From positions 1 through 40,807 of IMG/VR virus record IMGVR_UViG_3300028558_000050: 40,807 nucleotides of DNA, one strand, 5' to 3'. The position numbers and the translations under genes are program-made. This DNA comes from a virus. The notes under the pieces were generated by a model. It did no database searches. It had not been told where the DNA came from and worked only from the letters and a program-made list of their open reading frames with translations. This document shows, piece by piece, positions 307 to 20,773 of the stretch (position 1 is the stretch's first letter; every line of letters starts with the position of its first letter).

Positions 307-307
307 G

Positions 308-3393: not shown

Positions 3394-3501
3394 ATTTCCC
3401 CGTTTTTTTATTCGCCGCGCGGGTTGAAGCGAGCGGCAACAGAGCAACAGAGCGGCAACACAGGTGGACGGCTAAGACATTGATATATCTACATAATATC
3501 T

Positions 3502-3655
3502 ATTGTTGCCATTGTTGCTGTTGTTGCCGGCATTCGCCTATGCACTCGCGCGCACACGCGCACACATAGAGCCACCGTCAACAACGGCAACAACGGCAAC
3601 AATGCCCCTAAGTGACTGGAAAGGCCGGTTATTCTTGTTGCTGTTGCTGTTGCCG
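3502..3655. repeat. GTTGCC/GTTGCT repeat cluster with a large inverted repeat
   Basis: The left arm (about 3503-3529) reads attgttgccattgttgctg and continues gttgttgcc. The right arm (about 3579-3605) is nearly its reverse complement, with about 24 of 27 bases matching. A third, direct copy lies at about 3635-3655. The AT-rich patch 3480-3505 abuts the left arm. Such iteron-like repeats beside an AT-rich segment are typical of replication origins, but they could equally be binding sites for a regulator of the divergent operons. Confidence 0.7.
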
Positions 3656-3794
3656 TCCCCCGACCTGGTCGGCAACAAAGCCTTGGCGCGCTCGATGCGC
3701 CGAGGACAGCGAGCATGCGCCGCAACTCATTGATAAGCAAAGGGTTTGGGCGTGCTTGGCTGCAGCATAGTGCGACATGCCGCCGCATCCCCTC

Positions 3795-3824
3795 TTGACA
3801 AAGGTGCCAATTTGTCACCATGAT
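3795..3824 (+). promoter_or_regulatory. Promoter of the ardC operon with overlapping palindromic operator
   Basis: TTGACA (3795-3800) is a perfect -35 hexamer. CATGAT (3819-3824) lies 18 bases downstream and matches four of six -10 positions. The inverted repeat TGACAAA-N8-TTTGTCA (3796-3817) overlaps the -35 and fills the spacer, which is a classic repressor position. The ardC start is 51 bases past the -10. The ligand could be the small Xre regulator at the end of the same operon, but this is inference. Confidence 0.6.
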
Positions 3825-3874
3825 TAGCGTCGACGCGGTTAATCCAACCGGTCGCAGCAGCAGAGGTAGCAACC

Positions 3875-4792: not shown

Positions 4793-4794
4793 TC

Positions 4795-5001
4795 ATGACC
4801 GACGCCATCGCCACCACCGATACCGACCTGCATCAGCTCCAACGCCTCGTGAACGACGCGCGGCCGAGCAGCACAACGGTCAAGGTCCCGAAGGAGGCGC
4901 TGCGGCGCCTCCTTCTCGATCATCACACGCTCTACACGACGTTGCGCGAGCGCGGCCGCTTGGTCGTGACCGCCGGCGCCGATCAGCGCAGCCTGCTATG
5001 A
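4795..5001 (+). CDS. Hypothetical protein (68 aa)
   Basis: This small protein starts (ATG 4795) two bases after the ardC stop and ends in an ATGA overlap with the next gene. It reads as a helical protein, with KVPKEALRRLLLDHHTLYTT in the middle. No domain is recognised and there is no signal peptide or membrane segment. The tight linkage to ardC suggests an early accessory function, possibly another host-takeover or anti-defence factor, but nothing in the sequence proves it. Confidence 0.7.
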   Translation: MTDAIATTDTDLHQLQRLVNDARPSSTTVKVPKEALRRLLLDHHTLYTTLRERGRLVVTAGADQRSLL

Positions 5002-5363
5002 CCGCCGCCTGGATCGCAGCGGAACGAGCCGACCACCTGGCGCGCGAGCGCCAGGTGACGTTCCTTCCCTACGCCGACGACCCGCGCGTACTGCTGGTCC
5101 GCCATGGGTCCGGGCGCGTGGTGACGTACAGCCTGGCCGAGATCGCGACCAGGCACGGCGCTAACCACGCCTATCGCTACCGCACGGCCGCCCAGGTCGG
5201 TCGGCAGCGCGGGCTCAGCGGCCAGCTCCTGGTCCAGCTCGTGCCTGGCACGCTCGGCGAGCCCGACGCCTACCAGGTGCAGGACACTGCGCAGATCACC
5301 GTGGTAATGCTCGGCCAGGAGCGCGCGGCCGATCCGCCGGCGCATCAGCCGAGGTTGCTATGA
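4998..5363 (+). CDS. Hypothetical protein (121 aa)
   Basis: This gene starts with an ATGA overlap on the previous gene and ends with an ATGA overlap on the next. The protein is a soluble alpha/beta-looking sequence (WIAAERADHLARERQVTFLP near the start, then PRVLLVRHGSGRVVTYSLAE). I recognise no family. It belongs to the ardC early operon by spacing and strand. Its function is unknown. Confidence 0.7.
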   Translation: MTAAWIAAERADHLARERQVTFLPYADDPRVLLVRHGSGRVVTYSLAEIATRHGANHAYRYRTAAQVGRQRGLSGQLLVQLVPGTLGEPDAYQVQDTAQITVVMLGQERAADPPAHQPRLL

Positions 5364-5668
5364 CGAGCGACGACCTGGCCACGCTGCTGCGCTGGCTCTA
5401 TGCGAACGACGACGGCAGCGGCTGGCTCCCAGCCGCTGCCCGATACTTGCGTCTGAACGAGCGCAACCTGCGCGGCATGCTGCAGCCGAACGGCGTGGCC
5501 ATTCCGCCCACGATCGCCGATGTAATCTGCATCCTGGTCGCCAGCCATTCGTTCCTGCGTGGCTGGCACGATCGCTGGCAGCAGCTCGACCTGGCTGCAC
5601 TCAGCGACTGGACGAGCAACAGCATCAACCAATGGCGCGAGGAGCTGCACCTTGGCAACGCTGCGTGA
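5360..5668 (+). CDS. Hypothetical protein (102 aa), possibly helix-turn-helix
   Basis: This is the fourth gene of the ardC operon, with an ATGA overlap at its start. Residues about 22-55 (GWLPAAARYLRLNERNLRGM then a short turn and PPTIADVICIL) resemble a degenerate helix-turn-helix, similar to small plasmid or phage DNA-binding proteins. The fit is weak. Its 3' end contains the ribosome binding site (GGAG 5641-5644) and the start of the Xre-type gene that follows. The product is unknown; a small regulator is possible. Confidence 0.65.
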   Translation: MTSDDLATLLRWLYANDDGSGWLPAAARYLRLNERNLRGMLQPNGVAIPPTIADVICILVASHSFLRGWHDRWQQLDLAALSDWTSNSINQWREELHLGNAA

Positions 5669-5828
5669 ACGGCGCCAGGCGATCGGCCTGACGCAGGACG
5701 AGCTGGCCCGCGAGCTGCAGGTCAGCATTCGCACGATCAAACGATTGGAGAAGCAGCCAGCGCTCGATCGCCTCTATGAGCTGGCGATCGAGGCGCTGAC
5801 TGTCAGGCTCAGCCAGCAGAGCGAGTAG
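5652..5828 (+). CDS. Small Xre-family transcription regulator (58 aa)
   Basis: This short protein consists almost entirely of a helix-turn-helix: LRERRQAIGLTQDELARELQ is followed by VSIRTIKRLEK. The pattern matches the Cro/Xre family (GLTQ.ELA..L.VS..TI...E). The start is TTG at 5652, chosen because GGAG lies seven bases upstream and the helix-turn-helix begins at once. No ATG in frame keeps a sensible N-terminus. It overlaps the end of the previous gene by 17 bases and runs tail-to-tail into the cupin gene (overlap 5809-5828). It may autoregulate the ardC promoter palindrome at 3796-3817, which is inference. Confidence 0.75.
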   Translation: MATLRERRQAIGLTQDELARELQVSIRTIKRLEKQPALDRLYELAIEALTVRLSQQSE

Positions 5829-6519
5829 CGCCCTCCAAAACCTCGCGCACGATCGACCAGAGCCGATGCGCCGGCCACTGCTTCCGGTCGAAATCCACAT
5901 CGGGACCTATTCCGATCGCGCACAGAGACTGCGCACCGTGTGGCCCTTCATAGGTCTTGCTCATGATTGTGGCCACGCGACCGTCACCACCTGGCTCCGT
6001 CGAGTGGAAAGCGTACGGCACAACCTCGTAGCTCTGGCCGGCCTTCACTTCCTCCAGCTGCACGAGCGACACACGCACCGCCACTCCAGGCAGCCAGGGC
6101 CGATTGCCATAGGGCGTGCGCTCGCCCTCATGCAGATAGGGCACGTGCGTCGCCCTCACCATGTCGTCCACATTGGTCACTCGATAGCTTCGATTGATCT
6201 GCACACCGACCAACACTTGCGAGGTGAACCCGAAGCGGTGGTTATGGATGCTGGAGTGCGCGAAGCAGCGCCGACGCGGGAGCTCTGGATGCCACACATG
6301 CAACCGCCTCCGATCGTCGCCAGCCAGCGGCACCTGGAGGAAACCAAGACCATGCAGCGTGATCGGCTCCTCGGTCGCCATGAAGACTTTGCCGCCCATC
6401 GCCTGTTCCGCCGGCGCTTCTTGAATACTAGCGTCCGACCGATCAGCGATGCCGATGCCTCCAGGCGGCACACGCCGTATCACCCCGTCAGCGCCGCCCT
6501 GTTTCAGAAATTCCGTCAT
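5809..6519 (-). CDS. Cupin-like phage protein of unknown function (236 aa)
   Basis: The central part resembles a cupin barrel. A His-rich metal-binding stretch (SSIHNHRFGFTSQVLVG, about residues 90-106) is followed by a second half with YEVVPYAFHSTEP and GRVATIMSKTYEG. These are the kinds of HxH and late-His motifs found in metal-dependent cupins, including dioxygenase-like proteins. The substrate is unknown. The ATG at 6519 has GGAG upstream. It is the last gene of the leftward replication operon and its 3' end overlaps the convergent Xre gene by 20 bases. A role in nucleotide or host metabolite modification is possible but unsupported. Confidence 0.65.
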   Translation of the reverse strand: MTEFLKQGGADGVIRRVPPGGIGIADRSDASIQEAPAEQAMGGKVFMATEEPITLHGLGFLQVPLAGDDRRRLHVWHPELPRRRCFAHSSIHNHRFGFTSQVLVGVQINRSYRVTNVDDMVRATHVPYLHEGERTPYGNRPWLPGVAVRVSLVQLEEVKAGQSYEVVPYAFHSTEPGGDGRVATIMSKTYEGPHGAQSLCAIGIGPDVDFDRKQWPAHRLWSIVREVLEGATRSAG

Positions 6520-6550
6520 AGTCCCTTCTCCTTCGCTGGGTCACTTCCCT

Positions 6551-8470
6551 TTACCCATCGACCTCGCCCAGCATGGCGTCGATCGGCACCAGCACGGCGC
6601 CCTCGGCGCCGGCCTCGATACGCACCTTGCGGCTGGTCGCGCCTGGCGTGCGCGCTGCGGACTGGCGCCACACACCGTCTTGCCACTTGGTACCGCGGAA
6701 CATGCGAGCCAAGGCGGCGTGGCGGAACGCGATCGCCAGGTATTCCTTGCCCTCCTCGCCGTCGATCCTGGACTGGATCACGGCCATGCCGTGCTGGCGC
6801 AGGGCGCGGCCGGCCTTCGATCGGTCGATGTGGTGGCCGTGGCGCTGCGCGAACAGCTCGGCCTCCTCTCCGCTGGTCGGGATGCTGGCCGCTGCGACGG
6901 CGCGCGCGCTGGCCCAATAGACCAGGTGACGCACCGTGAATTTCTGGCCGCGATCGTAGGGCTCCAGCTGGTACGTCCCCAGGTGGCCCAGCATCAGCTC
7001 ATGGTCGCGGCCGGCGATCGCCTGCCACTCGCGCAGACTTGGGATCAGCGGCGCGATCGTCTCCTCGACCACGTCGGGATGCGCCGGATCATCGCACATG
7101 GCGATGTGGCTCATGGCCAGCAGGAACCCGAACGTGTCCGCCGTCCTGGCCGAGAACTCCGCGCCGATCGGCTCCCACCAGGGCGCCAGGTGTTCCTCCC
7201 ACCTGGGCCAGGCCGAAATCACCCGCCGCCGCAGCGCCGCGCCGATCCGGCCGAGCTTCACAGGATCTAGCTTCGGCCTGGTCGCGCCCTTCGGCAGCTC
7301 GGCCAGCTCGAGCAAACAGAGCCGGCTGACATCTTGCGGCGGCAACGGCAGCACGTTGATCGAGGAGAACAGGAACGGCGCGTAGACGTTGAACTCCACA
7401 GCATGGTGATCGCTGCCGCCTCGGCGCAGCTGAGCACCGGAGGCGCTAATGCGCATTAGGTTGATGATGCTTTCCTTGCGCTCGTTGTTGGTCCCCGCCT
7501 CGACCTCATCGAGCGCGACCGGCAGCGAACGGAATTTCAGGGCCTGCCAGATGCCGGCGCCCGTGGCGTCGGCCGCCTGGATGATGCCGGCGCGGCCGCC
7601 CTGGCTGAGATAGATCAGCTCCTGCAGCGTTGACTTGCCGGTCGCCATGTCGCCCGTGATCCAGGCGCTCGGCCGCCAGCGCAGCGCGCCGCCGACCGGC
7701 GCCAGCGTGATCCAGCCCAGCATCAGCAGCGCATCGAGCCCGCCGCGCCGCCAGTTCCAGGACTGCAGCAGCGCCAGCAGCTCCTCGGCCGGGCCGCCCT
7801 TGCCCTGGCGCGCATCGCTAACCGCGCTCGGCCGCATCTGCTGCTGGCCGCGCGGATAGATCAGGTGATCGTGAACGCCCGGCGGCCGCTCGTAGAGCTT
7901 GCCGTTGTGATCGGCGACCAGGACGACGTCACCGCAATGGAACACCAGGCGGCCGGCCTCGTCCTTCCAGCCACCATCGCCGCGCACGCGCCCCGAAGGA
8001 TCAAACACCCCGTTCATCGACAGGTCGCCGCAGCGTGCGATCAGCGCGCGCTTGAGCAGATCGCGGTCGATGCCGTTCAACACGCCGCCCTCGCCGATCC
8101 GGCCAAAGTTGGCATCCGCCCAGCGTTGCGCGTGCGAGTGCTTGAACAGATCGTCCACGCCGTTCTGGCTGAGCTTGTCGGCATGCTTGACGACCAGCTG
8201 CTGCAGGGCGTCGAGGAAATAATACTCGCTGCCGTTGACGCCGATCGGCTTGACCGGGCAGTCGTCGCCCAGCTCGATATAGGCGCGCGGCGTCTTGGGT
8301 TCCTTGGCCTTCTTCTTCCGCCGGCCGCCTTGTCGCTCGTCGTCCTGGTCGGGCGCCGGCGTTGCCTCGCGCTTGGGTAGGGGCACCACCGTCTCGGCCT
8401 GGCGTTCACGCTCCTGGAACAGTCCGGCGATCCGCTTCAATGGATCGTCGTCGCCCGCCTGGTCCGCCAT
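6551..8470 (-). CDS. Phage replication helicase/P-loop ATPase
   Basis: This 639-aa protein carries a P-loop ATPase core. Walker A is GDMATGKST at about residues 273-281, and a Walker B-type ALDEVE lies about 40 residues later, followed by SIINLMRISASGAQLRRGG, like the arginine/sensor region of phage primase-helicases. The N-terminus (about 1-60) is charged and low-complexity with a KKKAKEPK stretch. The family fits helicases paired with Toprim primases in temperate phages. ATG 8470 overlaps the stop of the 44-aa gene as ATGA, which decides the start. With the Toprim gene upstream it should unwind and prime phage DNA. Confidence 0.82.
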   Translation of the reverse strand: MADQAGDDDPLKRIAGLFQERERQAETVVPLPKREATPAPDQDDERQGGRRKKKAKEPKTPRAYIELGDDCPVKPIGVNGSEYYFLDALQQLVVKHADKLSQNGVDDLFKHSHAQRWADANFGRIGEGGVLNGIDRDLLKRALIARCGDLSMNGVFDPSGRVRGDGGWKDEAGRLVFHCGDVVLVADHNGKLYERPPGVHDHLIYPRGQQQMRPSAVSDARQGKGGPAEELLALLQSWNWRRGGLDALLMLGWITLAPVGGALRWRPSAWITGDMATGKSTLQELIYLSQGGRAGIIQAADATGAGIWQALKFRSLPVALDEVEAGTNNERKESIINLMRISASGAQLRRGGSDHHAVEFNVYAPFLFSSINVLPLPPQDVSRLCLLELAELPKGATRPKLDPVKLGRIGAALRRRVISAWPRWEEHLAPWWEPIGAEFSARTADTFGFLLAMSHIAMCDDPAHPDVVEETIAPLIPSLREWQAIAGRDHELMLGHLGTYQLEPYDRGQKFTVRHLVYWASARAVAAASIPTSGEEAELFAQRHGHHIDRSKAGRALRQHGMAVIQSRIDGEEGKEYLAIAFRHAALARMFRGTKWQDGVWRQSAARTPGATSRKVRIEAGAEGAVLVPIDAMLGEVDG

Positions 8471-8604
8471 CACCACCACCCGATCGAGAACATGAGCAAG
8501 GCGAGCCAATCGACATAGCCCGAATAAGCTGTCGTCGCCGCCCGATCGGCGGCCGCGCCGCCGCAGGCGCCGATCGGCAGGCACACGATCAGTCGCACAA
8601 CCAT
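8470..8604 (-). CDS. Small membrane protein between primase and helicase genes (44 aa)
   Basis: This tiny gene fits exactly between the Toprim primase and the helicase, with ATGA overlaps at both ends. That strongly suggests it is translated. The protein has two hydrophobic stretches, VVRLIVCLPIGACGG and DWLALLMFSIGWW, joined by a short polar linker. It could span the membrane once or twice. No family is recognised. A membrane microprotein inside a replication operon could anchor or modulate the replication complex or inhibit superinfecting phage, but this is speculation. Confidence 0.55.
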   Translation of the reverse strand: MVVRLIVCLPIGACGGAAADRAATTAYSGYVDWLALLMFSIGWW

Positions 8605-9725
8605 CACGCCGCCCTCCCCATTTCCTTCAACACCGTGTTCCAGTCGTCCATGCCTGGCGGCGGATAGACGATGTGCAGCGTGCGGCCGGCGCCCGCGTGG
8701 CGTTCCTTGGCGCGCTCGATCGACGCGGCCGTGTTGATGTTGTCGCCGTCGTTCTCGGCCGCGATCGTCACGTCGGAGAAACACGCCGGCAGCTCGACCT
8801 CGACGAACCCGCCCACGCCGATCGCGCAGGCGATGCGCCTGGCCGGCATGACCAGCGCCAGGGTAAGCCCCGTCTCGATGCCCTCGGTCAGCAAGATCGC
8901 CGAACGCGGCGGCAGCTTCGGCCAGGGCAAGCCCTTCTTCACTTCGCCAGTCTGCGTGTTGACGCGGTTGCCGGCCCACAGCCGGATCGTGCAGCCGCGC
9001 CAGGAGCCCAGCACCTTCTTGCCCAGCAGCTCGCGGCCGTCCCTGCCCTCGCCATCGCTGGCGCGCAGGCGGTCCCAGCCATCGCTGCGCTCGACCAGGT
9101 AGGTACGATGCAGGCCGACCATCTTGCCCCTGGCATCGACGATCGCCGCCACCATCGCCGGGAGCTCGCGATCGAGCTGAGCGTTGTAGAGCGCCGGCAC
9201 GTAGCGCAGGCACCCCGGCATGCGGCCGAGCCGCACCAGGTTGCCCTGCAGGCGCCGATCGAGATAGCACCAGGCCGGCGAGCCTGGCTTGATGTCCTCG
9301 GATTTCTTGAACCAGGTGTAGCGCGCCCGGCCCTCGGCCGCCTCGCGCTCGCGCTTGTCCTTGGCGGCGTGCAGCCTGGCGCGCTGCTCGCGCAGCTTGC
9401 GATTGTCCTCGGTGTCCTCGGGCACCGTGCCGCCCAGGAAATCCTTGGCCCAGGCAATCGCCCGCCTCATGTCGTTGCCGGTGCGCAGGTAGGCGATCAG
9501 GCCCAGCGTGTCGCCGCCCTTGGTCGCGGCATGGTGGAACCACTTGCCGCGCTTGTGGCCGTACAGTCCGACCTGCAGGCTGTCGCCGATGCCACCGTCG
9601 CGCGAGCTGGCCGCGTACCACTGGCGGCCGCGCTTGGCGCCACCGATCAGCTCGGTCAGCAGCTCCTCCAGCCGATCGTTCAGCAGCTCGTTCAGGCGCT
9701 CGATCGACACCAAGGCCGGCACCAT
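8604..9725 (-). CDS. Toprim-domain DNA primase
   Basis: This 373-aa primase-like protein has an N-terminal zinc-finger-like region without obvious Cys ligands (LYGHKRGKWFHHAATKGGD, about 54-72), the pattern seen before Toprim domains in phage primases. The C-terminal Toprim domain has LLTEGIETGLTLAL (catalytic Glu) and IAAENDGD (acidic pair), and ends with MDDWNTVLKE. It should lay RNA primers for phage replication with the downstream helicase. The start is set at ATG 9725 because it overlaps the previous stop as TGATG; GTG at 9728 is an alternative. It ends in an ATGA overlap with the 44-aa gene. Confidence 0.85.
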   Translation of the reverse strand: MVPALVSIERLNELLNDRLEELLTELIGGAKRGRQWYAASSRDGGIGDSLQVGLYGHKRGKWFHHAATKGGDTLGLIAYLRTGNDMRRAIAWAKDFLGGTVPEDTEDNRKLREQRARLHAAKDKREREAAEGRARYTWFKKSEDIKPGSPAWCYLDRRLQGNLVRLGRMPGCLRYVPALYNAQLDRELPAMVAAIVDARGKMVGLHRTYLVERSDGWDRLRASDGEGRDGRELLGKKVLGSWRGCTIRLWAGNRVNTQTGEVKKGLPWPKLPPRSAILLTEGIETGLTLALVMPARRIACAIGVGGFVEVELPACFSDVTIAAENDGDNINTAASIERAKERHAGAGRTLHIVYPPPGMDDWNTVLKEMGRAA

Positions 9726-9913
9726 CACCAGTAGCCTTTGCCGCCCATCAGCAGGGCGCAGGCCACGAGGCAGCTGCCGAGCGCCAGCGCGGCAGCTGCC
9801 AGGACTGGATCGACCTGGTCGAAAAAGCGGCCGAGGGCACAGAGCCCCCGGCCGTCTAGGAGCCAGTCAATCAGGGGCATAGCCTGCCCACCTGCGCTGC
9901 CGCAGCTCGTCAT
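9725..9913 (-). CDS. Small membrane protein (62 aa)
   Basis: This short protein has one clear transmembrane segment, PVLAAAALALGSCLVACALL (about residues 36-55), after a polar N-terminal half. ATG 9913 overlaps the previous stop (ATGA), and its own stop overlaps the Toprim start (TGATG). Its place inside the tightly packed replication operon supports translation. No homologous family is recognised. Together with the 44-aa protein, it makes two membrane microproteins in this operon. Confidence 0.6.
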   Translation of the reverse strand: MTSCGSAGGQAMPLIDWLLDGRGLCALGRFFDQVDPVLAAAALALGSCLVACALLMGGKGYW

Positions 9914-10185
9914 TTCCATTCGTCGATCCACCAGAGGCTCAGCTGGTCGCGATCCGGCGCCGGCCGATCGGTGATGAACTCGGCGGCCGGCAGCTCGTCG
10001 ATCATGCGCGCGAGCCGCGCCGCGTCCGGCGGCCGCAGCTCCAGGCGCGCGATCGTGACCTCGCTCCACACGCCCTTGGGCGTGCCGTCGCTCAGCAGGC
10101 CCTCGATCAGCACGCCATTCGGACGGCGCGCCGCCAGCCGGGCCGGCCAGCCGTTGCAGTAGACGACGGGCCAGCGGCCGCTCAC
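9910..10185 (-). CDS. Hypothetical protein (91 aa)
   Basis: This is the second gene of the leftward early operon, starting with an ATGA overlap on the cro-like gene. It reads as a small soluble protein (RPNGVLIEGLLSDGTPKGVW in the middle, ELRPPDAARLARMIDELPAA after it) and ends in a Trp-rich tail (LSLWWIDEWK). No domain is recognised. Its position right after the Cro-like regulator suggests very early expression. Confidence 0.7.
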   Translation of the reverse strand: MSGRWPVVYCNGWPARLAARRPNGVLIEGLLSDGTPKGVWSEVTIARLELRPPDAARLARMIDELPAAEFITDRPAPDRDQLSLWWIDEWK

Positions 10186-10409
10186 CCGGCCGCCCTCCGC
10201 TTGGGCTCATCGTAGAAGTCGGCGAAGGTGACCTGGTGGCCGGTCGCCTCCATCACCCGCCGCATGTTCTCCTGGCGCGGGATGGTGCCCGTCTCCCAGC
10301 GCTGGATGGCGCTCGGGTAGATCGTTTCGCCACTCGTCTTGGCGTTCAGTAGCTCTGCGAACGCCGCCAGAGTGAGCTTGTTTTCCTTGCGATATTGCTG
10401 GAGTTTCAC
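10182..10409 (-). CDS. Cro-like Xre-family regulator
   Basis: This is a 75-aa helix-turn-helix protein: KLTLAAFAELLNAKTSGETI then YPSAIQRWETG, typical of the Cro/CI family (first helix, turn, recognition helix before RWE.G). It is the first gene of the leftward replication operon and diverges from the CI-like gene, the standard Cro position. The start is GTG at 10409. No in-frame ATG is better, and the nearby ATG in another frame stops at once. An operator-like half-palindrome (10416-10432) sits directly upstream and a perfect operator (10461-10479) lies in the promoter spacer, so Cro probably regulates itself. Confidence 0.82.
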   Translation of the reverse strand: MKLQQYRKENKLTLAAFAELLNAKTSGETIYPSAIQRWETGTIPRQENMRRVMEATGHQVTFADFYDEPKRRAAG

Positions 10410-10415
10410 AACATA

Positions 10416-10538
10416 TATCCCGTTTTTCGGTACGTGCCACGATACCTAGTAGGTGGCATATATCCCGAAAAACGGGTTAATGTCTAGTACGGTGACGTAC
10501 CCATTAACCCGAAATCTTGCCGAGCCGAATTATTCGGG
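10416..10538. promoter_or_regulatory. Operator cluster of the immunity region (left)
   Basis: Four related sites lie between the cro-like and CI-like genes. O1 (10416-10432) is TATCCCG-TTTTT-CGGTA. O2 (10461-10479) is TATCCCG-AAAAA-CGGGTTA, a perfect TAWCCCG-N5-CGGGWTA palindrome. O3 (10503-10514) is the half-site ATTAACCCGAAA. O4 (10525-10537) is CCGAAT-T-ATTCGG, a perfect palindrome of a related core. This arrangement matches a lambdoid OR-type control region bound by repressor and Cro. Confidence 0.72.
10457..10486 (-). promoter_or_regulatory. Promoter of the cro/replication operon
   Basis: On the minus strand, TAGACA (10486-10481, five of six -35 positions) is followed after 18 bases by TATATG (10462-10457, four of six -10 positions). 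The 18-base spacer holds nearly all of a perfect operator (10461-10479), so a bound repressor would block RNA polymerase. The predicted start is near 10450, about 40 bases before the GTG of the cro-like gene. Confidence 0.6.
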
Positions 10539-10557
10539 CGGCGCGCATATTCTGGTG

Positions 10558-10923
10558 ATGCCCCGTGGTCGCCCGCGCCAGTCGCCCATGCCCCAGATCA
10601 ACAACCGCATCCGACAGGAGCGGGAGAGCAAGGGCTGGTCGCTGGCCAGGCTGAGCAAGGAGACGCGGCCGCGCATCCCGGCGCAGACGATCCAGCGCCA
10701 CGAAACCGGCATCGCCCAGGTCGATCTCCTGCAGCTGGAAATCTATGCGATCGCGCTCGGCATCAAGCCCGAGGAGCTGATGCACGATGGCATGAGGATC
10801 AGCGCCGACGCTCGCGAGCTTCTGGCGCTGTACGACCGCATGACACCGCGCGAGCGCGAGCAGCTGGTGAAAGTGGCGCAGGCCTTGTTTATCGAGCCCA
10901 CGCCGCTGCGCAAGGCGAGCTAG
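10558..10923 (+). CDS. CI-like repressor (Xre family, no peptidase domain)
   Basis: This is a divergent partner of the cro-like gene. After an AT-hook-like RGRPRQ there is a clear helix-turn-helix: NNRIRQERESKGWSLARLSK then IPAQTIQRHETG. The remaining 60 residues are helical (ISADARELLALYDRMTPRER), with no LexA/S24 peptidase domain. Induction therefore probably does not use RecA-stimulated self-cleavage. The start is uncertain. ATG 10558 (121 aa) and ATG 10588 (111 aa) are both possible, and neither has a strong ribosome binding site. A GTG at 10453 would put operators inside the gene and is unlikely. It probably keeps the lysogenic state by binding the nearby operators. Confidence 0.75.
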   Translation: MPRGRPRQSPMPQINNRIRQERESKGWSLARLSKETRPRIPAQTIQRHETGIAQVDLLQLEIYAIALGIKPEELMHDGMRISADARELLALYDRMTPREREQLVKVAQALFIEPTPLRKAS

Positions 10924-10924
10924 G

Positions 10925-11170
10925 TTAGCGCGGCGCTGGCTGCGTCAGCCGGTCGTTTCGGCCGTAGTCAATCGTTCCATTGTTTCCCCCGTTGGTAGGC
11001 ACGTACACCGTTGTGGTGTTCGATTGCGCCGGCGCGGCCGGCGGGTAGATCGGCGACACTGTCGATGAGGGCCGAGCAGACGGGGCGACGTAGCGATCGA
11101 ACTGAGCCCAGGCAGGGCCAGCCAGTGTCACGATCGCCACCAAAGCGATGCACGCTACCGTTGTCCGCAT
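10925..11170 (-). CDS. Small secreted protein, possible lysogenic-conversion gene
   Basis: This 81-aa protein has a classic Sec signal peptide: MRTTVACIALVAIVTLAGPA then WAQ, with likely cleavage after Ala-Trp-Ala. The mature part is Pro/Ser/Thr/Asn-rich (SSTVSPIYPPAAPAQSNTTT) with no Cys. ATG 11170 is chosen over an upstream start (11215) because the signal peptide starts there and AGAGGAA precedes it. It lies alone on the minus strand between the CI-like gene (stop to stop, one base apart) and the parB-type operon. That is a typical place for a gene expressed in the lysogen that alters the host surface. Its function is unknown. Confidence 0.7.
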   Translation of the reverse strand: MRTTVACIALVAIVTLAGPAWAQFDRYVAPSARPSSTVSPIYPPAAPAQSNTTTVYVPTNGGNNGTIDYGRNDRLTQPAPR

Positions 11171-11226
11171 GTGTTCCTCTCGCTGTCTAATTGCGAACAC
11201 TCTAACAACCATCACCGACGATGCAC

Positions 11227-11301
11227 TTAACGTTTTCGGGATAAGTCGTTGAGCCTATCCCGTTTTTCGGGTTAATTCACTTGCTTCCGAATAACCCGAT
11301 A
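11227..11301. promoter_or_regulatory. Operator cluster of the parB/integrase operon (right)
   Basis: Three sites match the cro/CI operators. O5 (11227-11244) is TTAACG-TTTT-CGGGATAA. O6 (11256-11274) is TATCCCG-TTTTT-CGGGTTA, the same palindrome as O2 with the central A/T tract inverted. O7 (11287-11301) is CCGAATAACCCGATA, a variant half-site pair. A weak promoter-like pair, TTGAGC (11249-11254) and a TTAATT-type -10 around 11272-11277, would place O6 in the spacer. The same repressor probably acts here and at the cro promoter. Confidence 0.68.
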
Positions 11302-11360
11302 TGAGAGTAATTCCCTGGCGGCCACTTTCCGGCCGCTCTTGGACAAAGGGACTTACCCAC

Positions 11361-12944
11361 ATGGCAACACCATCCATCGCAGCGGTTGTGAAAGGCCGCA
11401 TGGCGCAGCTCGATCTCAAGGTAACGGGTATCGACGGCGTCGATCACGCCATCATCAGCCGGGTCCGCTCGGGCAAGCAGACCGACCTGAAATTCAGCGT
11501 GGCCCAGCAGATCGCCAAGGGCCTCGACCTCTCGCTCGACGAGCTGGCCGGCGCGCCGGCGTCCGGCGTGCGCACCCTGCCCCTGTGTGACCTGGTGCCC
11601 GATCCGAACAACGTGCGCACCCTATTCGATGTCACCCAGGACCGGCCATTCATCGACAGCATCAAGGAACATGGCCTGATCCAACCGCTCGCCGTCCGCC
11701 GCTACGAATACCCCGACAGCGGCAACCAGGCCTGGTTGATCGTGGCCGGGCACCGCCGCCATGCCGCCCTGGTCCATATCCACGGCACCAAGAGCCGGCA
11801 TCCGGTGCCGGTCATCGTCAAGGACCCGAAGCAGGAGCGCGAGCGCCTGGTGCTGCAGCTGGTCGAGAACATGCAGCGTGCCGACCTCCATCCCTGGGAC
11901 GTGGCCAAGGCGATCGCCGAGCTGGTCAACGACGGCGTCGGCACCGACGCGATCGCCGACGACATCGGCCGAGGCAGGCGCTGGGTCCAGGAAATGGCCA
12001 GCGTCGGCCGAGGCCTGCACGTCGGCGCGCGCAACGCGCTGATCGGCGGCCGCATCAGCATCAGCCAGGCGATCGCCCTGGCCGCCTGCAAGGACGAGAA
12101 GCAACAGAACGCACTCGTGACCAAGAGCTGCGACGGCAAGCTGAACGAGGACGAGATACGCGCGGCGATCGCCGACGCCAAGGAGGAGGCCAAGACGAAG
12201 GCCGACGCCGAGGCGCCGGTGCAGTCTCACATCGAGGACTTCATACCCAAAGCCGAGGGCGGCACCGCCAAGCGCAAGGACCCCAAGGTGTGCAGCACCT
12301 GGTACAAGTGGAAGGGCTCGCAGGGCTCGATCAAGGTACAGCTGCTGCGCTTTGCCGACACCCACGGCTACGTCAACAATGGCGACGAACGCTGGCGCAC
12401 CAAGACGGGCGGCGTCAGCTGGCATTGGTCCGCCAATCTCGACACCAAGCAGCGCGTCCGCGAGTACGACACGAACCACGAGGCCCTGGCCGCCGGCTTC
12501 ATCCATGGCCTGGAATTCGTCCTGGTCGGCGCCTGGAAAAGTGACGCGCGCACCCTGCGCTCGTTCGTCGAGTGGGCCTGCAAGAAGCTGGAGCGCGCTG
12601 GGATGGCTGCCGGCGATGTCCTCAAGCCGAAGGCGAAGATGCTCAAGGCGATCGACGACCGCTTCAAGGCCGAGCCCGCGCCCCCCAAGCCGGTGGCGCC
12701 GATCGACTTGGCTCAGGCGCCAGCGTGGGCCGCACCGATGGCAGATGCCCTGTTCATGTATCACAACGGACGACAGGCGTGGCTCTGCAAAGGATGGAGC
12801 CAGCTGACCCACACGATGGGTCGCACCAGCGGGGCGCAAAACTGGACCGCGCTCTACGATCGTAGCCAGTGGCAGGACGACCAGGATGGCAAGCCGTTCG
12901 ATTTCGGCTCGGCCGTCGTGCGCCTGGAAAAGGCGCCGTCATGA
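11361..12944 (+). CDS. Xre-ParB fusion regulator/partition-like protein
   Basis: This 527-aa protein joins two modules. Residues about 1-55 form an Xre-like helix-turn-helix (VVKGRMAQLDLKV...AIISRVRSGKQTDLKF...LDLSLDELA). Residues about 70-190 form a ParB/Srx domain with the box GHRRHAA and the downstream motif ENMQRADLHP. A KorB-like helix-turn-helix region (about 190-235) follows. The last 250 residues (from about 300) form an unrecognised domain ending QDDQDGKPFDFGS. ATG 11361 is preceded by AAGGGA. No ParA is present, so plain plasmid partition is doubtful. A transcriptional or recombination role is more likely. It leads the operon that ends with the integrase. Confidence 0.8.
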   Translation: MATPSIAAVVKGRMAQLDLKVTGIDGVDHAIISRVRSGKQTDLKFSVAQQIAKGLDLSLDELAGAPASGVRTLPLCDLVPDPNNVRTLFDVTQDRPFIDSIKEHGLIQPLAVRRYEYPDSGNQAWLIVAGHRRHAALVHIHGTKSRHPVPVIVKDPKQERERLVLQLVENMQRADLHPWDVAKAIAELVNDGVGTDAIADDIGRGRRWVQEMASVGRGLHVGARNALIGGRISISQAIALAACKDEKQQNALVTKSCDGKLNEDEIRAAIADAKEEAKTKADAEAPVQSHIEDFIPKAEGGTAKRKDPKVCSTWYKWKGSQGSIKVQLLRFADTHGYVNNGDERWRTKTGGVSWHWSANLDTKQRVREYDTNHEALAAGFIHGLEFVLVGAWKSDARTLRSFVEWACKKLERAGMAAGDVLKPKAKMLKAIDDRFKAEPAPPKPVAPIDLAQAPAWAAPMADALFMYHNGRQAWLCKGWSQLTHTMGRTSGAQNWTALYDRSQWQDDQDGKPFDFGSAVVRLEKAPS

Positions 12945-13246
12945 ACGCCTACGCCAAGGCCGCCATCGCCAGCCTGGCACCGACGACGGCGACGAGCGCC
13001 GACATCAGCCGCATGTTCAAGCGCAAGCCCGGCTGGTTCGATCACAGCCGCGTGCGCAAACGACTGTACGCCGCCGGCTTCCCGCATCCGGTGGACACTG
13101 GCCGGTGGTCGCTGGTCGCCGTCGTCAACTGGATCGCGAGCGCCGGCCAGAACCCGGAGAACGTGCCGCCCGATTTCAAGCCCACGCCTGGCAGGCGTGG
13201 GCCGAAGGGCGGCCGCCGGCAGAACGGGTACGCGGACCATGAGTGA
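12941..13246 (+). CDS. Putative excisionase/AlpA-like DNA-binding protein
   Basis: This 101-aa basic protein starts with an ATGA overlap on the ParB-type gene. Its centre (SADISRMFKRKPGWFDHSRV, then RKRLYAAGFPHPVDTGRWSLVAVVNWI) has the shape of a winged-helix DNA-binding domain of the excisionase/MerR/AlpA type, with a Phe-Pro turn and a final VVNWI helix. The C-terminus is basic (GRRGPKGGRRQ). Being in the integrase operon supports a directionality-factor role. An alternative is a plain regulator. Confidence 0.6.
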   Translation: MNAYAKAAIASLAPTTATSADISRMFKRKPGWFDHSRVRKRLYAAGFPHPVDTGRWSLVAVVNWIASAGQNPENVPPDFKPTPGRRGPKGGRRQNGYADHE

Positions 13247-13409
13247 TCCGCGCCCCGCCACCGACGACGAGCTGCGCCGGCACAAGCTGCCGGTCGATGT
13301 CCAGATCGGCACGGCCATCTTCCAAGTAGGCACGCCGCTGCTCACGATCATCGCCACCGCCCGCTACTGGATGGCGCGCGCAGAGGGCAAGGAGCCGCCC
13401 CCGGCATGA
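13239..13409 (+). CDS. Hypothetical protein (56 aa)
   Basis: This small gene overlaps the end of the excisionase candidate by 8 bases and the next start by ATGA. The protein has one weakly hydrophobic segment (GTAIFQVGTPLLTIIATA, about residues 24-41) that could touch or span a membrane, followed by a short Pro-rich tail. No family is recognised. It is one of five consecutive tiny genes before the integrase. Confidence 0.6.
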   Translation: MSDPRPATDDELRRHKLPVDVQIGTAIFQVGTPLLTIIATARYWMARAEGKEPPPA

Positions 13410-13642
13410 GCATCAATGACCGCCCGCCGCCGCGCCCCGCGCGGCCGGCCTTCACCGTCGATGACAAGAAGCGCCTGGAGCGCGAGCTGGGCGTCATCGC
13501 CGGCAAACTCAACTGCGTCGCCATCCAGGCCCGCGCCATGTGGGACGAGGGCGACTACACCGTGATCCTTGAAGCCGAGGCCGGCGCCGCCGAGGGCGAC
13601 GTTCAGCGCCTCAAAAGACGATTGAAGGAACTGAACAAATGA
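13406..13642 (+). CDS. Hypothetical protein (78 aa), helical
   Basis: This gene starts (ATGA) on the stop of the preceding gene and ends (ATGA) on the next. The N-terminus is Pro/Arg-rich (RPPPRPARP). The rest is helical and acidic, ending in a charged helix (AEGDVQRLKRRLKELNK). No known domain is seen. Strict coupling on both sides supports translation. Confidence 0.62.
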   Translation: MSINDRPPPRPARPAFTVDDKKRLERELGVIAGKLNCVAIQARAMWDEGDYTVILEAEAGAAEGDVQRLKRRLKELNK

Positions 13643-13794
13643 CCATCGCAGCTCGACGCGCCCGCATCCGCGCGCGCAACTTCGCCTCGTTCGCGGCGCC
13701 CTACGTCCTGGTCGCCATCACCATCCTAGGCTGCATGTACGCCGGCTCGCGCGTCGCCTCGATCGGCGCCAAGCTCGCGAGGGCCTGGCTATGA
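13639..13794 (+). CDS. Single-span membrane microprotein (51 aa)
   Basis: This gene is very short but fits exactly between its neighbours, with ATGA overlaps at both ends. The N-terminus is strongly basic (MTIAARRARIRARN). It is followed by one membrane segment (FAAPYVLVAITILGCMYAGS, about residues 18-37) and a short basic tail (IGAKLARAWL). This suggests a protein with its N-terminus inside the cell. Function is unknown. Confidence 0.6.
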   Translation: MTIAARRARIRARNFASFAAPYVLVAITILGCMYAGSRVASIGAKLARAWL

Positions 13795-14072
13795 GCATCG
13801 CCGAGGAAATCGCCAAACGCTTCGGCACCCGCTGGGGCGCCGCCATCCACGACCAGCTGCTGCCGCTGATCGGCAACAACAGCCTCCTGGCCGTGCGCGT
13901 CTACTTCACCTTCGACGCTCCCGGCAGCGGCATCCGCAGCGGCGAGGTCACGCTGCAGGTTGCCGCCGGCGCCAGCGCCCTGCTGCAGACCGCGATCGAG
14001 GAGCGCCTGGCCGGCCGCCTGGGCGTCACCCATCGAGAGACGCGCCAACGCGAAACCCCGAGGAAGTCATGA
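13791..14072 (+). CDS. Hypothetical protein (93 aa)
   Basis: This soluble protein sits directly upstream of the integrase, with ATGA overlaps at both ends. The N-terminal helix (IAEEIAKRFGTRWGAAIHDQ) is followed by a beta-rich part (LLAVRVYFTFDAPGSGIRSG) and a basic C-terminus (THRETRQRETPRKS). No family is recognised. Its position beside the integrase allows a role in recombination control, but nothing in the sequence shows one. Confidence 0.65.
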   Translation: MSIAEEIAKRFGTRWGAAIHDQLLPLIGNNSLLAVRVYFTFDAPGSGIRSGEVTLQVAAGASALLQTAIEERLAGRLGVTHRETRQRETPRKS

Positions 14073-15397
14073 CCTTGACCCCTCGCCTCCGCGTCGTGCA
14101 GCCTCGCCCACCGATGGCCAAGCTCGACGCCCCCTACATGCTGGTCCAGTCCAACAAGGATGGATCGGCGCGCTACTACTTCGCACCCAAGCAGCTCGAC
14201 CGGCGCGCCGGCTGGGCGACGGTGCGCCTGCATGACGAGTACGAGCGGCCGATCGCCGACCCTTTGAAGGCGGCCGAGGCGTGCCGCGCGATCGCCGCGA
14301 TCTACACCGCCTGGCGCCAGGGCGCGGCCGATGCCGGGCCGTGGCGCATCGACCGCCTGGGCCGCGTCGTCGATGACAAGAAGAAACGACGCGCCCCGCA
14401 GCGCCACTACAAGCCCGGCCAGATCGGCGCGATGGTCGCCGACTACCTGGTGCATGAGCTGTTCCTGGCGAAGGATGCCAAGACGCAGAAGGAATACCGC
14501 ATCTATCTCGGCCTGTTCGTCGAGAAGTTCGGCGACACCTACTGGCGCCGCCTGGCGCCAGGCGTCGTGCGCAAGTGGCTGCTGGCGCGCGGCCGCGCCG
14601 GCGGCTGGTCCGGCATGCACAGCTGCTACCGCACGATGCGCGCCTTCTTCGGCAAGGTGCGCCTCTGCTACGACAGCGTGGACCATCCTGGTTTCGTGCC
14701 GCCCGAGGCCAACCCGGTGGTCAAGCTCGACCTCGGCCTGCCGACCGTGAACCTGCTGCTGTGGCCGCGCGAGGCGATCGACGCTTTCGTCGCCATGGCC
14801 GACCAGGTCGGCGAGCCGTCGATCGGCGATGCCGTGGTGATGATGGCCTGGCTCGGCGTGCGCAAGCAGGACTGGCTGAGCTGGCCGGCCAACGTGTTCG
14901 ACCAGGAGCTGCTGGCCTTCCGCCAGGACAAGACGGAGCGGCCGCTGGTGCTGCCGTGGAAAAAGGTGCCGGCCCTCGCCGCGCGCGTGGCGTCCGCCGT
15001 GCGCCGGCGCGGCACGGTCACGGCCGCGACGTTCTTCCACGATCGCGACGGCCGCCCGTGGCGATCGCCGGGCACCTTCCGCAAGGCGTTCAACCGCCTG
15101 CGCGACCAGCTGAGCGCCAAGCATCCGGCCTTCGCCACCAACTACTACGTCGGCATCGACCCCGCGAACCCGCTGCAGCTGCCGACCGACAAGCTGACCA
15201 TGCGCACCATGCGGCACACCTGCATCACGTTGAACCATGACGCCGGCGTGCCGCGCGAGCTGATCCCCTCGATCACCGGCCACGAGCTGGCGACGATCGA
15301 CGAGGTGATGAAGTGCTACAACGCGCGCACCGCCGACCAGGCCGCAGCCGCGCTCACGATCCGCCTGGCCCACGAGGCGAAGGAGGCCGAGGGATGA
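14069..15397 (+). CDS. int: Tyrosine recombinase (integrase)
   Basis: This 442-aa site-specific recombinase should integrate the phage at the tRNA-derived attP that follows the gene. The C-terminal catalytic domain shows Arg265 in GVRKQDW, a candidate Lys288 (QDKT), RTMRH at 379-383, His405 in TGHE and the nucleophile candidate Tyr417 (VMKCY). The usual HxxR motif reads RxxR here, so one of the conserved His positions is replaced by Arg. The N-terminal half (about 110-220) has the core-binding features of the family (YKPGQIGAMVADYLVHELFL). It is last but one in the operon led by the Xre-ParB fusion. Confidence 0.9.
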   Translation: MTLTPRLRVVQPRPPMAKLDAPYMLVQSNKDGSARYYFAPKQLDRRAGWATVRLHDEYERPIADPLKAAEACRAIAAIYTAWRQGAADAGPWRIDRLGRVVDDKKKRRAPQRHYKPGQIGAMVADYLVHELFLAKDAKTQKEYRIYLGLFVEKFGDTYWRRLAPGVVRKWLLARGRAGGWSGMHSCYRTMRAFFGKVRLCYDSVDHPGFVPPEANPVVKLDLGLPTVNLLLWPREAIDAFVAMADQVGEPSIGDAVVMMAWLGVRKQDWLSWPANVFDQELLAFRQDKTERPLVLPWKKVPALAARVASAVRRRGTVTAATFFHDRDGRPWRSPGTFRKAFNRLRDQLSAKHPAFATNYYVGIDPANPLQLPTDKLTMRTMRHTCITLNHDAGVPRELIPSITGHELATIDEVMKCYNARTADQAAAALTIRLAHEAKEAEG

Positions 15398-15570: not shown

Positions 15571-15843
15571 GTTGCATGTTTCAAGTCATAGGACCGAGGC
15601 ATAGGACTTTCGCCACGGTTCGTTCTCCTCTGTGGATTTCGTAGGGCACCGCTAAAACACTGGCCGGCTTGCGTTTCAGGATGGTGCCCCCGGTCCGAGT
15701 CGAACGGACACTCCCTTGCGAGAACCTGATTTTGAGGCGGTCGCGCGCCTTCACGGAAAAGCCCGCGCCGCCTGCATTTTGTGGCCCTGCCGGTCCTATG
15801 CCTTCGGCCGGTTTTCGACCGCTTTCCGGCCAATAGTTGCATG
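15570..15843. repeat. Arm-type repeats flanking the attP core
   Basis: CATAGGAC occurs at 15587-15594 and 15600-15607 (13 bases apart) left of the core, and inverted as GTCCTATG at 15793-15800 on the right. The second and third copies extend to the 10-base match GGCATAGGAC/GTCCTATGCC. AGTTGCATG occurs at 15570-15578 and again at 15835-15843, about equally far from the core. Symmetric short repeats on both sides of a core are what integrase arm-binding or excisionase sites look like. Confidence 0.65.
15682..15736 (-). other. attP: attP core: 3' part of a tRNA-Leu(CAA) gene
   Basis: On the minus strand this is the last 55 bases of a leucine tRNA. It shows the anticodon loop CTCAAAA (anticodon CAA), the 3' anticodon stem TCAGG, a long variable arm, and a perfect T arm (GTCCG-TTCGACT-CGGAC). 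The 3' acceptor strand CGGGGGC and ACCA follow. The 5' half of a tRNA is absent: upstream bases cannot form the anticodon stem. The identity ends in the anticodon loop, as is usual where a phage integrates into a tRNA gene and restores its 3' end. It lies 112 bases past the last gene of the integrase operon. Confidence 0.88.
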
Positions 15844-15845
15844 CC

Positions 15846-15877
15846 AAAAAAGAGGGCCGCCGGTTGCCCAGCGGCCC
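15846..15877 (-). terminator. Rho-independent terminator of the late operon
   Basis: Read on the minus strand, GGGCCGC (15877-15871) pairs perfectly with GCGGCCC (15860-15854) across a 10-base loop. Six T residues (15851-15846) follow after two bases. It lies about 80 bases past the last late gene (stop at 15957) and stops late transcription before it reaches attP and the integrase operon. Confidence 0.8.
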
Positions 15878-15956
15878 AAGTCTAGGGAGGAAACGCGCGA
15901 TCGGCGTGGAGCGCGATCGGCGCCTCGCTGGCCGTGATGAAGCGGCCAGGAGCTGG

Positions 15957-18211: not shown

Positions 18212-20773
18212 TCACCCTAAGGTCCAGGTGCCGAGCGGCGCCACCGTGTAGCCGGTGTCCGATCGCCAGTTGACTTCCATGCGCGCGCCATTCGATCCGG
18301 AAACGATGAAGCCGCCGGCGCTCGACGAATTGTTCAAATTGTTGATGGTGCCGGTCGGCGTTTTGACCTTCGTGCCGATCGTCGGCGTCGCGCCGCCGGC
18401 ACCGGCGCCACAGAGGACGAGGCACTTGAAGCCCCGTATCGAATTACCCCCGCCGCTGTTCGGCGGCGGCAGCGTCAGATTGATGACCGTAACGGCGTTG
18501 GACGGCAGCCGGAAAACCTTGCCGCTGTCGGCGCTCGTCAGCACCAGGTCGGCGACCAAGTCGATGACGGTGTCGTTGTTGGGATAGCCGTCGTTGCCCG
18601 GCCCCATGAGCGTGCCGCCGGTGTTGTCGCTGATGTTCAGCGTGTCGCCGACCGAGCGCGAGTTGAGGACCTGGACGGTTGACTTGGCCGTCCGCACGAT
18701 GCCGGTGGTGCAGCCCTGCGTCAGGGCCTTGAGCTGGCCGGTCGCGACATGCGAGACGCCGGCCACCGTGTAGCTAAGGTCCTCGCCGCCAGCCGCCGCA
18801 GCATCGGCGATCGCCGTCTGGTTGCTGGAGAAGTGGAACGTGTTGGCGTCGTCCACCGCCACCGTCCACGGATTGGCGTCGATGTCGTTGTTGAGATCGA
18901 CGCCGGCCGTGACCTCGACCCCTGAAAAGGCGATCTGGTCGCCGTTGTGGAACGGGTGGCCAGGGAAGGCGGCCGACACGGTCTGGCTGTTCTTCGTGAA
19001 GGTGAAGCAGTCATCGGGCATCGACGCCGTGCTGTTCGACTTGCCACCGTCCACCTGGAAGCCCGTCGTGCAGCCGATCGCCGCCGCCTCGATGTCCATG
19101 TTGGCGCAGTCGAAGCTGCCGCCCAGGTCGCAGCCAACCGCACGCAGGCCCCGGCCGATGAAGTTGTCGGCGTCCGACTGGATCATAAAGCCGCGCCCTC
19201 GGCCGATCGCGGTCATGCCCTGCAGGGTGACGTTCTTGGCCACCGTGACGAAAAACTTGGTGCTGCCGTCGTCCTCGTCGGCCGGCGTCACGTTCTCAAG
19301 GATCACGTTCTGGTCGATGCCCAGGTCGCCGCCGCGACCATTGCCGTTGTTGCCGCTGCCGCCGCGATGGCGCACGCCGTTCGCGTGCGCCTTGCGGATC
19401 GTCCCGCTGACACGGATCAGCTGCGGCTTGGGGCCGCGCACGTCGATCGCGGGCTTTTGGTCGTCCATCGCCGGCGCGATGAACGAGCCGGCCGCGCCGC
19501 CGCCGGTGATGCTGGCCGCCGCCTGCACGCCCACGTCGATCGTGACGGTGTAGTAGCCGGCGTGCTTGACCACAGCCTTGACCGGACGCGACACGTTGAT
19601 GTTGGCGGCCGCGATGCCGCCGGTTCCCGTCAAGCCTGAGAACGTCGAACGCTGGCCGACATAGAGTTTCTGCGTGACGTTGAGGTCGATGGTGGTGCGG
19701 CCGTCCGCCACCGTCGTCACCGGATCGGCCGCCATCGGCACCGGCGCCGCGCGCATCTGGCCGACGCTGCCCATGCCCCACGCATCAACGTGGTGGTTCA
19801 TGAACAGCGGCCGCTCGCCCAGCTCGGGGTTGGTGTTCTGCGGCCCCTTGATGTCGGTGCCGTCGTTCAGGCAGTAGACGATCGTGTTGCCGATGTACGA
19901 CAGGTCGTTCTTGCCGCCAGGATGCCCGTTGTTCGTGCCATACCCAGGCACGTCCCAAATGTAATTGTCGGTGCAGTGAAAGTTGAAATTTGAATTGGTC
20001 TCGGCAGTCGAGGTCGTCTTGATGATGTAGCGCGGGTGCCCCTGGAAGCGCGAGTTGCCGATCCAGCAGGTCTTGCGGATGGCACAGTGGCTTTTCTTGA
20101 TCGACCAGATGCCGGTGTTGCGCCAGTCATCCATGATAACGGTGGTCAGTTCGCGATCGGCCCCCTCCCAAACGAAGTGCGCATTGGGCGCATAGTCATG
20201 GTCGCCGGTTTTCAGGACGAAGGTGCCGACGCCGCCCCGGATCATGCCGGGCCGCGTGCCGATATAGTCCATCGCCTTCTGGATTGTCGGGTGCGCGTCG
20301 ATCGTGCCCTGGTGAATGAAGCCGTTGAGGAACGTCGGGTCCGGGTCGTTGACCGCATCGAGCTTCCAGATCGAGCCGAGCAACAGCACGTTGGTATCGT
20401 CGATGATGGTAAGCGCCGCCCACGGATCGCCGCCGAACGGCAGGCCGTTCACGTTGTCGATCGTGCCATGCGTGGGATCGCGCAGCGGGCCGTAGACCGG
20501 CCCGGTGCCGGTCCAGTTGTTGGCCCGGTGCATGCGGTTGGTGGCGCCGTCCCAGCCGGCCGCGCGGCAGGTTGTCGGCTTCGCCGGGTCGAAGCTGTGC
20601 GGCTCGTAGGTCTCGACGGCAATCTGGTTGCCGGCGCCCTGGTAGATGCGCTTGATCCGTCGCACGGTGGGACTGTCCACCGGCGGCGAGATCAACGGCC
20701 GCCGGCCACGCGCAAAGGCACCGATGCAGCCAGGCGGCACATCGACGGCCGAGTGATTGCCCTTGCGCTTCAT
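18212..20773 (-). CDS. Tailspike, right-handed beta-helix type
   Basis: This 853-aa protein has features of tailspikes. Many Asn/Gly/Thr-rich short repeats (for example NVTLQGMTAIGRGRGFMIQS) fit a right-handed beta-helix like pectate-lyase folds. The N-terminus (about 1-50, with GRRPLISPPVDSPTVRRIKR) may attach it to the virion. A long middle part contains aromatic and acidic positions. The C-terminus (TGYTVAPLGTWTLG) may be the trimer tip. Such spikes bind and often cut host surface polysaccharide. The catalytic site cannot be assigned by eye. It is the largest receptor-binding candidate here and lies after three fibre-type genes. Confidence 0.78.
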   Translation of the reverse strand: MKRKGNHSAVDVPPGCIGAFARGRRPLISPPVDSPTVRRIKRIYQGAGNQIAVETYEPHSFDPAKPTTCRAAGWDGATNRMHRANNWTGTGPVYGPLRDPTHGTIDNVNGLPFGGDPWAALTIIDDTNVLLLGSIWKLDAVNDPDPTFLNGFIHQGTIDAHPTIQKAMDYIGTRPGMIRGGVGTFVLKTGDHDYAPNAHFVWEGADRELTTVIMDDWRNTGIWSIKKSHCAIRKTCWIGNSRFQGHPRYIIKTTSTAETNSNFNFHCTDNYIWDVPGYGTNNGHPGGKNDLSYIGNTIVYCLNDGTDIKGPQNTNPELGERPLFMNHHVDAWGMGSVGQMRAAPVPMAADPVTTVADGRTTIDLNVTQKLYVGQRSTFSGLTGTGGIAAANINVSRPVKAVVKHAGYYTVTIDVGVQAAASITGGGAAGSFIAPAMDDQKPAIDVRGPKPQLIRVSGTIRKAHANGVRHRGGSGNNGNGRGGDLGIDQNVILENVTPADEDDGSTKFFVTVAKNVTLQGMTAIGRGRGFMIQSDADNFIGRGLRAVGCDLGGSFDCANMDIEAAAIGCTTGFQVDGGKSNSTASMPDDCFTFTKNSQTVSAAFPGHPFHNGDQIAFSGVEVTAGVDLNNDIDANPWTVAVDDANTFHFSSNQTAIADAAAAGGEDLSYTVAGVSHVATGQLKALTQGCTTGIVRTAKSTVQVLNSRSVGDTLNISDNTGGTLMGPGNDGYPNNDTVIDLVADLVLTSADSGKVFRLPSNAVTVINLTLPPPNSGGGNSIRGFKCLVLCGAGAGGATPTIGTKVKTPTGTINNLNNSSSAGGFIVSGSNGARMEVNWRSDTGYTVAPLGTWTLG

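Follow-up and report, generated by a model that had tools for sequence, protein, structure and literature searches.

An Xre-ParB protein of a temperate podovirus as a candidate regulator of the lysogeny and integration arm

The window analyzed here, the 40,807 nucleotides of the IMG/VR virus record IMGVR_UViG_3300028558_000050, carries at 11361..12944 (+) a gene, xre-parB, for a protein of 527 aa that combines a probable Xre helix-turn-helix (HTH), a ParB_N and an HTH_ParB domain and an unrecognised C-terminal region. In our preferred reading, to which we give a probability of about 0.5, this orphan ParB-fold protein, encoded by a temperate podovirus that integrates, regulates transcription of the lysogeny and integration arm and does not serve partition. 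Its ParB core would load at a specific DNA site, close there into a clamp that binds an NTP, most likely CTP, and then slide, the loading and sliding being modelled on KorB, VirB and Noc. The fused Xre domain and C-terminal region might supply another contact with DNA or a surface to which a partner binds. We infer by analogy the nucleotide, the loading and action of the clamp, its DNA site, the protein that binds the operators and the direction of the effect (repression or activation). The intact ParB boxes, the lack of both a ParA and a ParA-binding motif, the attP site, the shared operators and the similar gene orders in other elements all argue for the regulator reading.

Phages commonly encode orphan ParB-like proteins, most of which have no known job in the published work consulted. 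This locus offers a concrete case in which a ParB clamp gene is tied to an immunity switch by operators and to integration by its operon; if the regulatory role is true, phage lysogeny decisions would involve nucleotide-gated sliding clamps in addition to repressors and peptide signals. The claim is a modest one, because the relatives are few and the function is read from sequence.

The ParB core of Xre-ParB

The open reading frame was found to be real, since its ATG is conserved and the protein of its closest relative, encoded by IMG/VR 3300028563_000068, likewise begins MATPSIAAVVK. The two proteins are 77% identical end to end, with the same start ATG and the same neighbouring genes. The initial annotation had recognised a ParB core by its GHRRHAA and ENMQR motifs, and both these motifs and the profile searches confirm it: ParB_N (Pfam PF02195; aa 70-172, E 1.6e-9, 38.1 bits against a cut-off of 26.3) and HTH_ParB (Pfam; aa 175-273, E 3.9e-6) are both above their cut-offs. 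The core (codons for aa 70-273, 11568..12179, +), which has both profile and structure matches, also passes TIGR00180 parB_part, the model of the ParB/RepB/Spo0J core (E 1.4e-21, 77.1 bits against 58.45). It remained below the curated cut-offs of the Noc model TIGR04285 (79 bits against 315) and of the PRTRC ParB model TIGR03734 (57.2 bits against 278.6). Boxes I, II and III of the nucleotide pocket are intact (QPLAV at 108, GHRR at 130 and ENMQR at 169), with GHRR in box II in place of the commoner GERR.

By sequence, Spo0J, Noc and CTP-bound ParB come nearest among solved structures. With 16 related sequences, AlphaFold2 gave a model that is confident for approximately residues 66-284 only (pLDDT around 90) and that matched structures of Noc, ParB-CTP and KorB with E values of 1e-11 to 1e-9, while the use of 2 sequences only gave a mean pLDDT of 37.6. 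The description of the second HTH as KorB-like held in part: the model gave matches to KorB structures at 1e-9, but the Pfam KorB domain PF08535 gave no match to Xre-ParB at E<=1. The likeness to KorB is thus one of fold only, and HTH_ParB is the better name.

The same fold could in principle belong to an enzyme, a nuclease or phosphotransferase that uses ATP or another substrate and does not act as a clamp. The ParB/Srx fold includes the ATP-binding Srx and SerK, Srx structures match the Xre-ParB model at 3e-3, and about half of the nucleotide-binding proteins covered in a 2025 survey used ATP or GTP (PMC12704722). However, the three boxes (I, II and III), like the HTH_ParB that follows them, are of the ParB type, and the single-domain enzymes of the fold are without these, which makes an enzyme highly improbable. 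A point that does count against the regulator reading is that, according to section 9 of the same survey, the NTP specificity of the ParB-CTPase fold cannot be predicted from sequence or by AlphaFold3 (PMC12704722).

A probable Xre domain and an unrecognised C-terminal region

Residues 5-64 are probably, if with weak statistical backing, a Cro/C1-type (Xre) HTH (codons for aa 1-65, 11361..11555, +). HTH_3 matched aa 26-62 with an E value of 0.052 in the whole protein and of 0.0019 when the N-terminus was searched alone (18.6 bits, below the cut-off of 23), and no match to Xre proteins was found in a profile search of the PDB. The N-terminal HTH is the least secure element of the initial annotation: HTH_3 is below its cut-off and the pLDDT of the segment is low (about 40-60), but the model places helices where they are expected (6-16, 25-36, 42-55 and 59-62), and a homologue encoded by an Azospirillum phage-plasmid has an HTH_26 match at the same place (E 0.0026). 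The alignment of that homologue with Xre-ParB begins within the HTH domain, at residue 26. The statistical weakness of the Xre call is a second point against the regulator reading. A recent duplication of the phage's own CI-like protein was also considered as the source of the domain and is unsupported, since the two gave no alignment.

The C-terminal region (aa ~290-527; codons for aa 290-527, 12228..12941, +) had been called unrecognised, and this was borne out by the lack of any Pfam match and of any tblastn match in phages and plasmids, even at E=10. Its ~240 residues are common only to the IMG/VR 3300028563_000068 relative, with 65% identity over the aligned stretch, and scans of viral contigs and genomes retrieved that relative only. 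Against PHROGs, the sole match was to phrog_19604 (0.0015, of unknown function), which the protein of the relative does not give. Structure prediction had been proposed for this region; AlphaFold2 with 16 sequences resolves the core (~66-284) and leaves the C-terminus unresolved, hence we make no claim about its fold.

In the Pfam search, Xre-ParB gave no match to PF23552, the canonical domain by which ParB dimerises through its C-terminus, although a Dolichospermum phage ParB has this domain. As dimerisation matters for a clamp, this argues against the clamp part of our proposal.

Two operator arrays, in the immunity region and upstream of xre-parB

The genes upstream of xre-parB form a divergent immunity region, with a Cro-like Xre regulator of 75 aa (10182..10409, -; HTH_3, 6e-7) and a CI-like Xre repressor of 121 aa (10558..10923, +; HTH_3, 3.3e-7; phrog_3 transcriptional repressor, 4.3e-8). 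The start of the CI-like gene at 10558 is a predicted one; its open frame begins at 10453, within the first of two operator arrays. This array 1 (10416..10512) lies between the Cro-like and CI-like genes and consists of an imperfect site (10416-10434), a full site (10461-10479) and a half-site (10505-10512). Array 2 (11236..11299), directly upstream of xre-parB, has a full site (11256-11274) flanked by half-sites at 11236 and 11292. The two arrays resemble the two three-site operators of lambda.

The full site is a 19-bp operator, TAACCCGAAAAACGGGATA, which at up to 3 mismatches occurs at two sites only in the window and never in shuffled sequences. All 8 of the TAWCCCGW half-sites of the window fall within the arrays (10416-10512 and 11236-11299). 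In comparison, dinucleotide shuffles of the window contained a mean of 1.1 and a maximum of 6 half-sites, never more than 2 of them within 100 bp, and shuffles of the intergenic segments alone contained at most 1. An unsupervised 7-mer count of the two intergenic regions retrieved the same elements (TATCCCG and TAACCCG, four times each), with no further copies in the 40.8-kb window. Both arrays, with three sites each, are recognisable in IMG/VR 3300028563_000068, some of the sites being degenerate, and a single stray half-site occurs elsewhere in the relative's contig. A search for palindromes across the window returned many GC-rich ones that arise by chance; only the CCCGAAAAACGGG family is at once repeated, intergenic and conserved. 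A sigma-70 promoter scan found none, and a rough test for shared 7-mers in the immunity regions of VarioGold, Aval and the Azospirillum element found no comparable array.

Because the promoter region of the parB-xis-int genes carries the operators of the Cro/CI switch, expression of xre-parB would be tied to the choice between lysis and lysogeny. Most simply, the CI/Cro pair would control the promoters at both arrays, with Xre-ParB as an alternative binder. CI/Cro binding accounts for the operators as well or better, which is a further argument against the regulator reading, since Xre-ParB may then not bind them.

Were Xre-ParB to bind them, it could be a single-chain counterpart of KorA-KorB, in which the Xre domain would read an operator and lock the fused sliding clamp onto it. 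A clamp loaded at one array would then reach and silence the other immunity promoter, ~0.8 kb away. In plasmid RK2, KorB is likewise a ParB-fold regulator, matched here by structure at 1e-9, and is a sliding clamp turned into a repressor, but its DNA-binding partner KorA is a separate protein, whereas Xre-ParB has the HTH on the same chain and other operators (PMC11790492). VirB, a CTP-dependent anti-silencer, is another ParB-fold clamp that regulates transcription (PMC10770331). We regard the single-chain version as quite improbable; if true, a sliding NTP clamp, and not DNA looping, would couple integration to the lysis-lysogeny switch.

Between the CI-like gene and array 2, the other strand carries a small ORF (10925..11215, -) that begins like a signal peptide (MRTTVACIALVAIVTLAGPAWAQ). 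It is divergent from xre-parB across array 2, is conserved in IMG/VR 3300028563_000068 (7571-7855) and is a possible lysogenic conversion gene.

The parB-xis-int operon and the attP site

As first annotated, xre-parB heads the integrase operon. An ATGA overlap joins it to the gene of a putative Xis of 101 aa (12941..13246, +), whose GFPHPVDTGRWSLVAVVNWI motif we take to be AlpA/excisionase-like and which had no significant Pfam or PHROG match. Three small overlapping or closely spaced ORFs of high GC3 (13197-13409, 13406-13642 and 13791-14072, all +) lead from there to the tyrosine integrase (14069..15397, +; phrog_1 integrase, 2e-10).

Past the integrase lies an attP core (15681..15736, -). 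It corresponds to the 3′ half of a tRNA-Leu(CAA), beginning at the anticodon loop and reaching CCA, which is the usual form of attP for a tyrosine integrase that targets a tRNA. In Phyllobacterium, a complete, ARAGORN-confirmed tRNA-Leu(caa) adjoins an integrase, and the attP core could be aligned to it; the exact attP sequence was found in none of the other viral contigs. By its gene content and attP, the phage is equipped for chromosomal integration. The conserved two-array operator, the attP in tRNA-Leu(CAA) and the ATGA-coupled Xis-like gene that completes the parB-xis-int operon are new here.

Adjoining attP, at 15839-15906 (-), a full-length match to the suhB/mmgR sRNA of Rfam was observed (RF00519, 49.9 bits, gathering threshold 41), with a terminator-like hairpin. 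We take suhB/mmgR to be an alphaproteobacterial family, hence this match hints at an alphaproteobacterial host, which the virus probably has.

The gene order makes it possible, from that order only, that Xre-ParB aids integration or excision, either by binding the attP/int region or by helping Int and the Xis-like protein to build the intasome. Its gene is the first of the parB-xis-int operon, with the ATGA overlap, and in VarioGold, Aval and the Azospirillum element, too, int has a ParB gene nearby. However, no operator repeat was found near attP, and Serratia phage Eta has been reported with a ParB homologue but without an identified integrase gene (PMC7556043). An accessory factor of this kind is, in our estimate, unlikely. 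Transcriptional regulation by a spreading clamp and a part in lysogeny, both put forward by the initial annotation, are the best-supported of its options, the operator arrays and attP adding independent support; the missing ParA from which it had argued is not distinctive.

The missing ParA and the case for partition

The initial annotation had stated that there is no ParA and named a ParA gene elsewhere in the genome as a refutation. Neither PF13614 nor PF01656 had a match within the virus record, which may be a fragment, as no terminase was recognised among the ORFs searched in the IMG/VR contig. A regular-expression search for the ParA-binding motif [LFI]G[KR]G[LFI], as defined in the survey (PMC12704722), showed that it is missing from Xre-ParB. 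As an argument for novelty, the lack of ParA fails on its own. Among 20 viral records selected for the peptide VAGHRRHAA, the record of the IMG/VR 3300028563_000068 relative included, none has a ParA and 16 have a ParB relative detectable with Xre-ParB. The same survey describes orphan ParB-CTPase-fold proteins as widespread on mobile elements, phages and prophages, often as domain fusions, and as binding CTP, ATP or GTP (PMC12704722). The missing ParA is thus ordinary and not distinctive.

Xre-ParB could still load phage DNA and use a host ParA or SMC, for instance to segregate unintegrated DNA. Besides the ParB homology itself, a precedent exists in the Eta prophage, suggested to be maintained as a plasmid through its ParB and host factors (PMC7556043), and the lack of ParA covers the virus record only, so that a host ParA is possible. 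Against such a role, there is no ParA gene or ParA-binding motif, and the attP in tRNA-Leu(CAA) together with the integrase points to chromosomal maintenance and therefore to no need for partition. The Azospirillum phage-plasmid also has its weak ParA-like match by repA, about 10 kb from its Xre-ParB gene. We consider partition or DNA organisation a distinctly unlikely function.

Comparison with known ParB-fold systems

Xre-ParB shares with the orphan proteins of the survey the ParB_N and HTH_ParB domains, the lack of ParA and of the ParA-binding motif, the encoding by a mobile element and the fusion of extra domains (PMC12704722). It differs from them in that phage operators would control its gene, and the available sections of the survey name no fusion to its probable N-terminal Xre-type HTH or to its C-terminal region (PMC12704722). 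With Noc and ParB/Spo0J, which provide its best sequence and structure matches, it has the core domains in common; unlike them, it has no canonical C-terminal dimerisation domain and no ParA partner, and it lies in a phage operon.

ParB-fold proteins recur with the lysogeny arm of other elements, which supports the regulator reading. The ParB gene of VarioGold (Variovorax) and that of Aval (Acidovorax) have the repressor on one side and an AlpA/MerR-like gene and integrase on the other, but the integrase is on the other strand, unlike here, and the VarioGold ParB has no N-terminal HTH match. The 54.9-kb phage-plasmid of Azospirillum thermophilum (NZ_CP029360.1) has its Xre-ParB gene after HTH regulators and before an integrase, and differs in carrying repA and the weak ParA-like match elsewhere. 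No significant similarity of the C-terminal region to the Azospirillum and VarioGold proteins was found. In the SP-beta yopM-yopR lysogeny operon, Xre, XerC-like and ParB_N_Srx (YopQ) proteins occur together (PMC8612738); the likeness is one of gene content, the Xre and ParB_N_Srx proteins being separate there. The published accounts consulted give no demonstrated role in the lysogeny arm for the ParB-fold proteins of these four elements.

NZ_CP029360.1 is recorded as "plasmid unnamed5"; its terminase, tail genes, repA and integrase make it look like a phage-plasmid instead.

Other features of the virus record

The virion genes resemble those of phages such as SPN1S and Ab31 in being of podovirus type. 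Two ORFs among them are large (853 aa at 18212-20773 and 861 aa at 28961-31546, both -) and had no PHROG match at E<=0.001.

An ArdC-type antirestriction protein (ArdcN and zincin metallopeptidase) is encoded at 3875-4792 (+). Its presence bears on whether Xre-ParB might act early on entry, protecting or organising the incoming DNA or countering host defence, like plasmid ParB-like proteins. The best plasmid matches include an IncFII ParB adjoining antirestriction and psiB genes and a Novosphingobium ParB with ssb and antirestriction genes nearby. However, the ArdC gene of the window is about 7 kb off and outside the parB operon, and the links of xre-parB are to int and to the immunity operators, so that we hold an early-entry function to be very unlikely.

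The stretch 3583-8573 is 97% identical to positions 1-4988 of IMG/VR 3300028563_000068, but the stretch 8604-14514 is only 86% identical, a step that suggests a recombination boundary near 8.6 kb.
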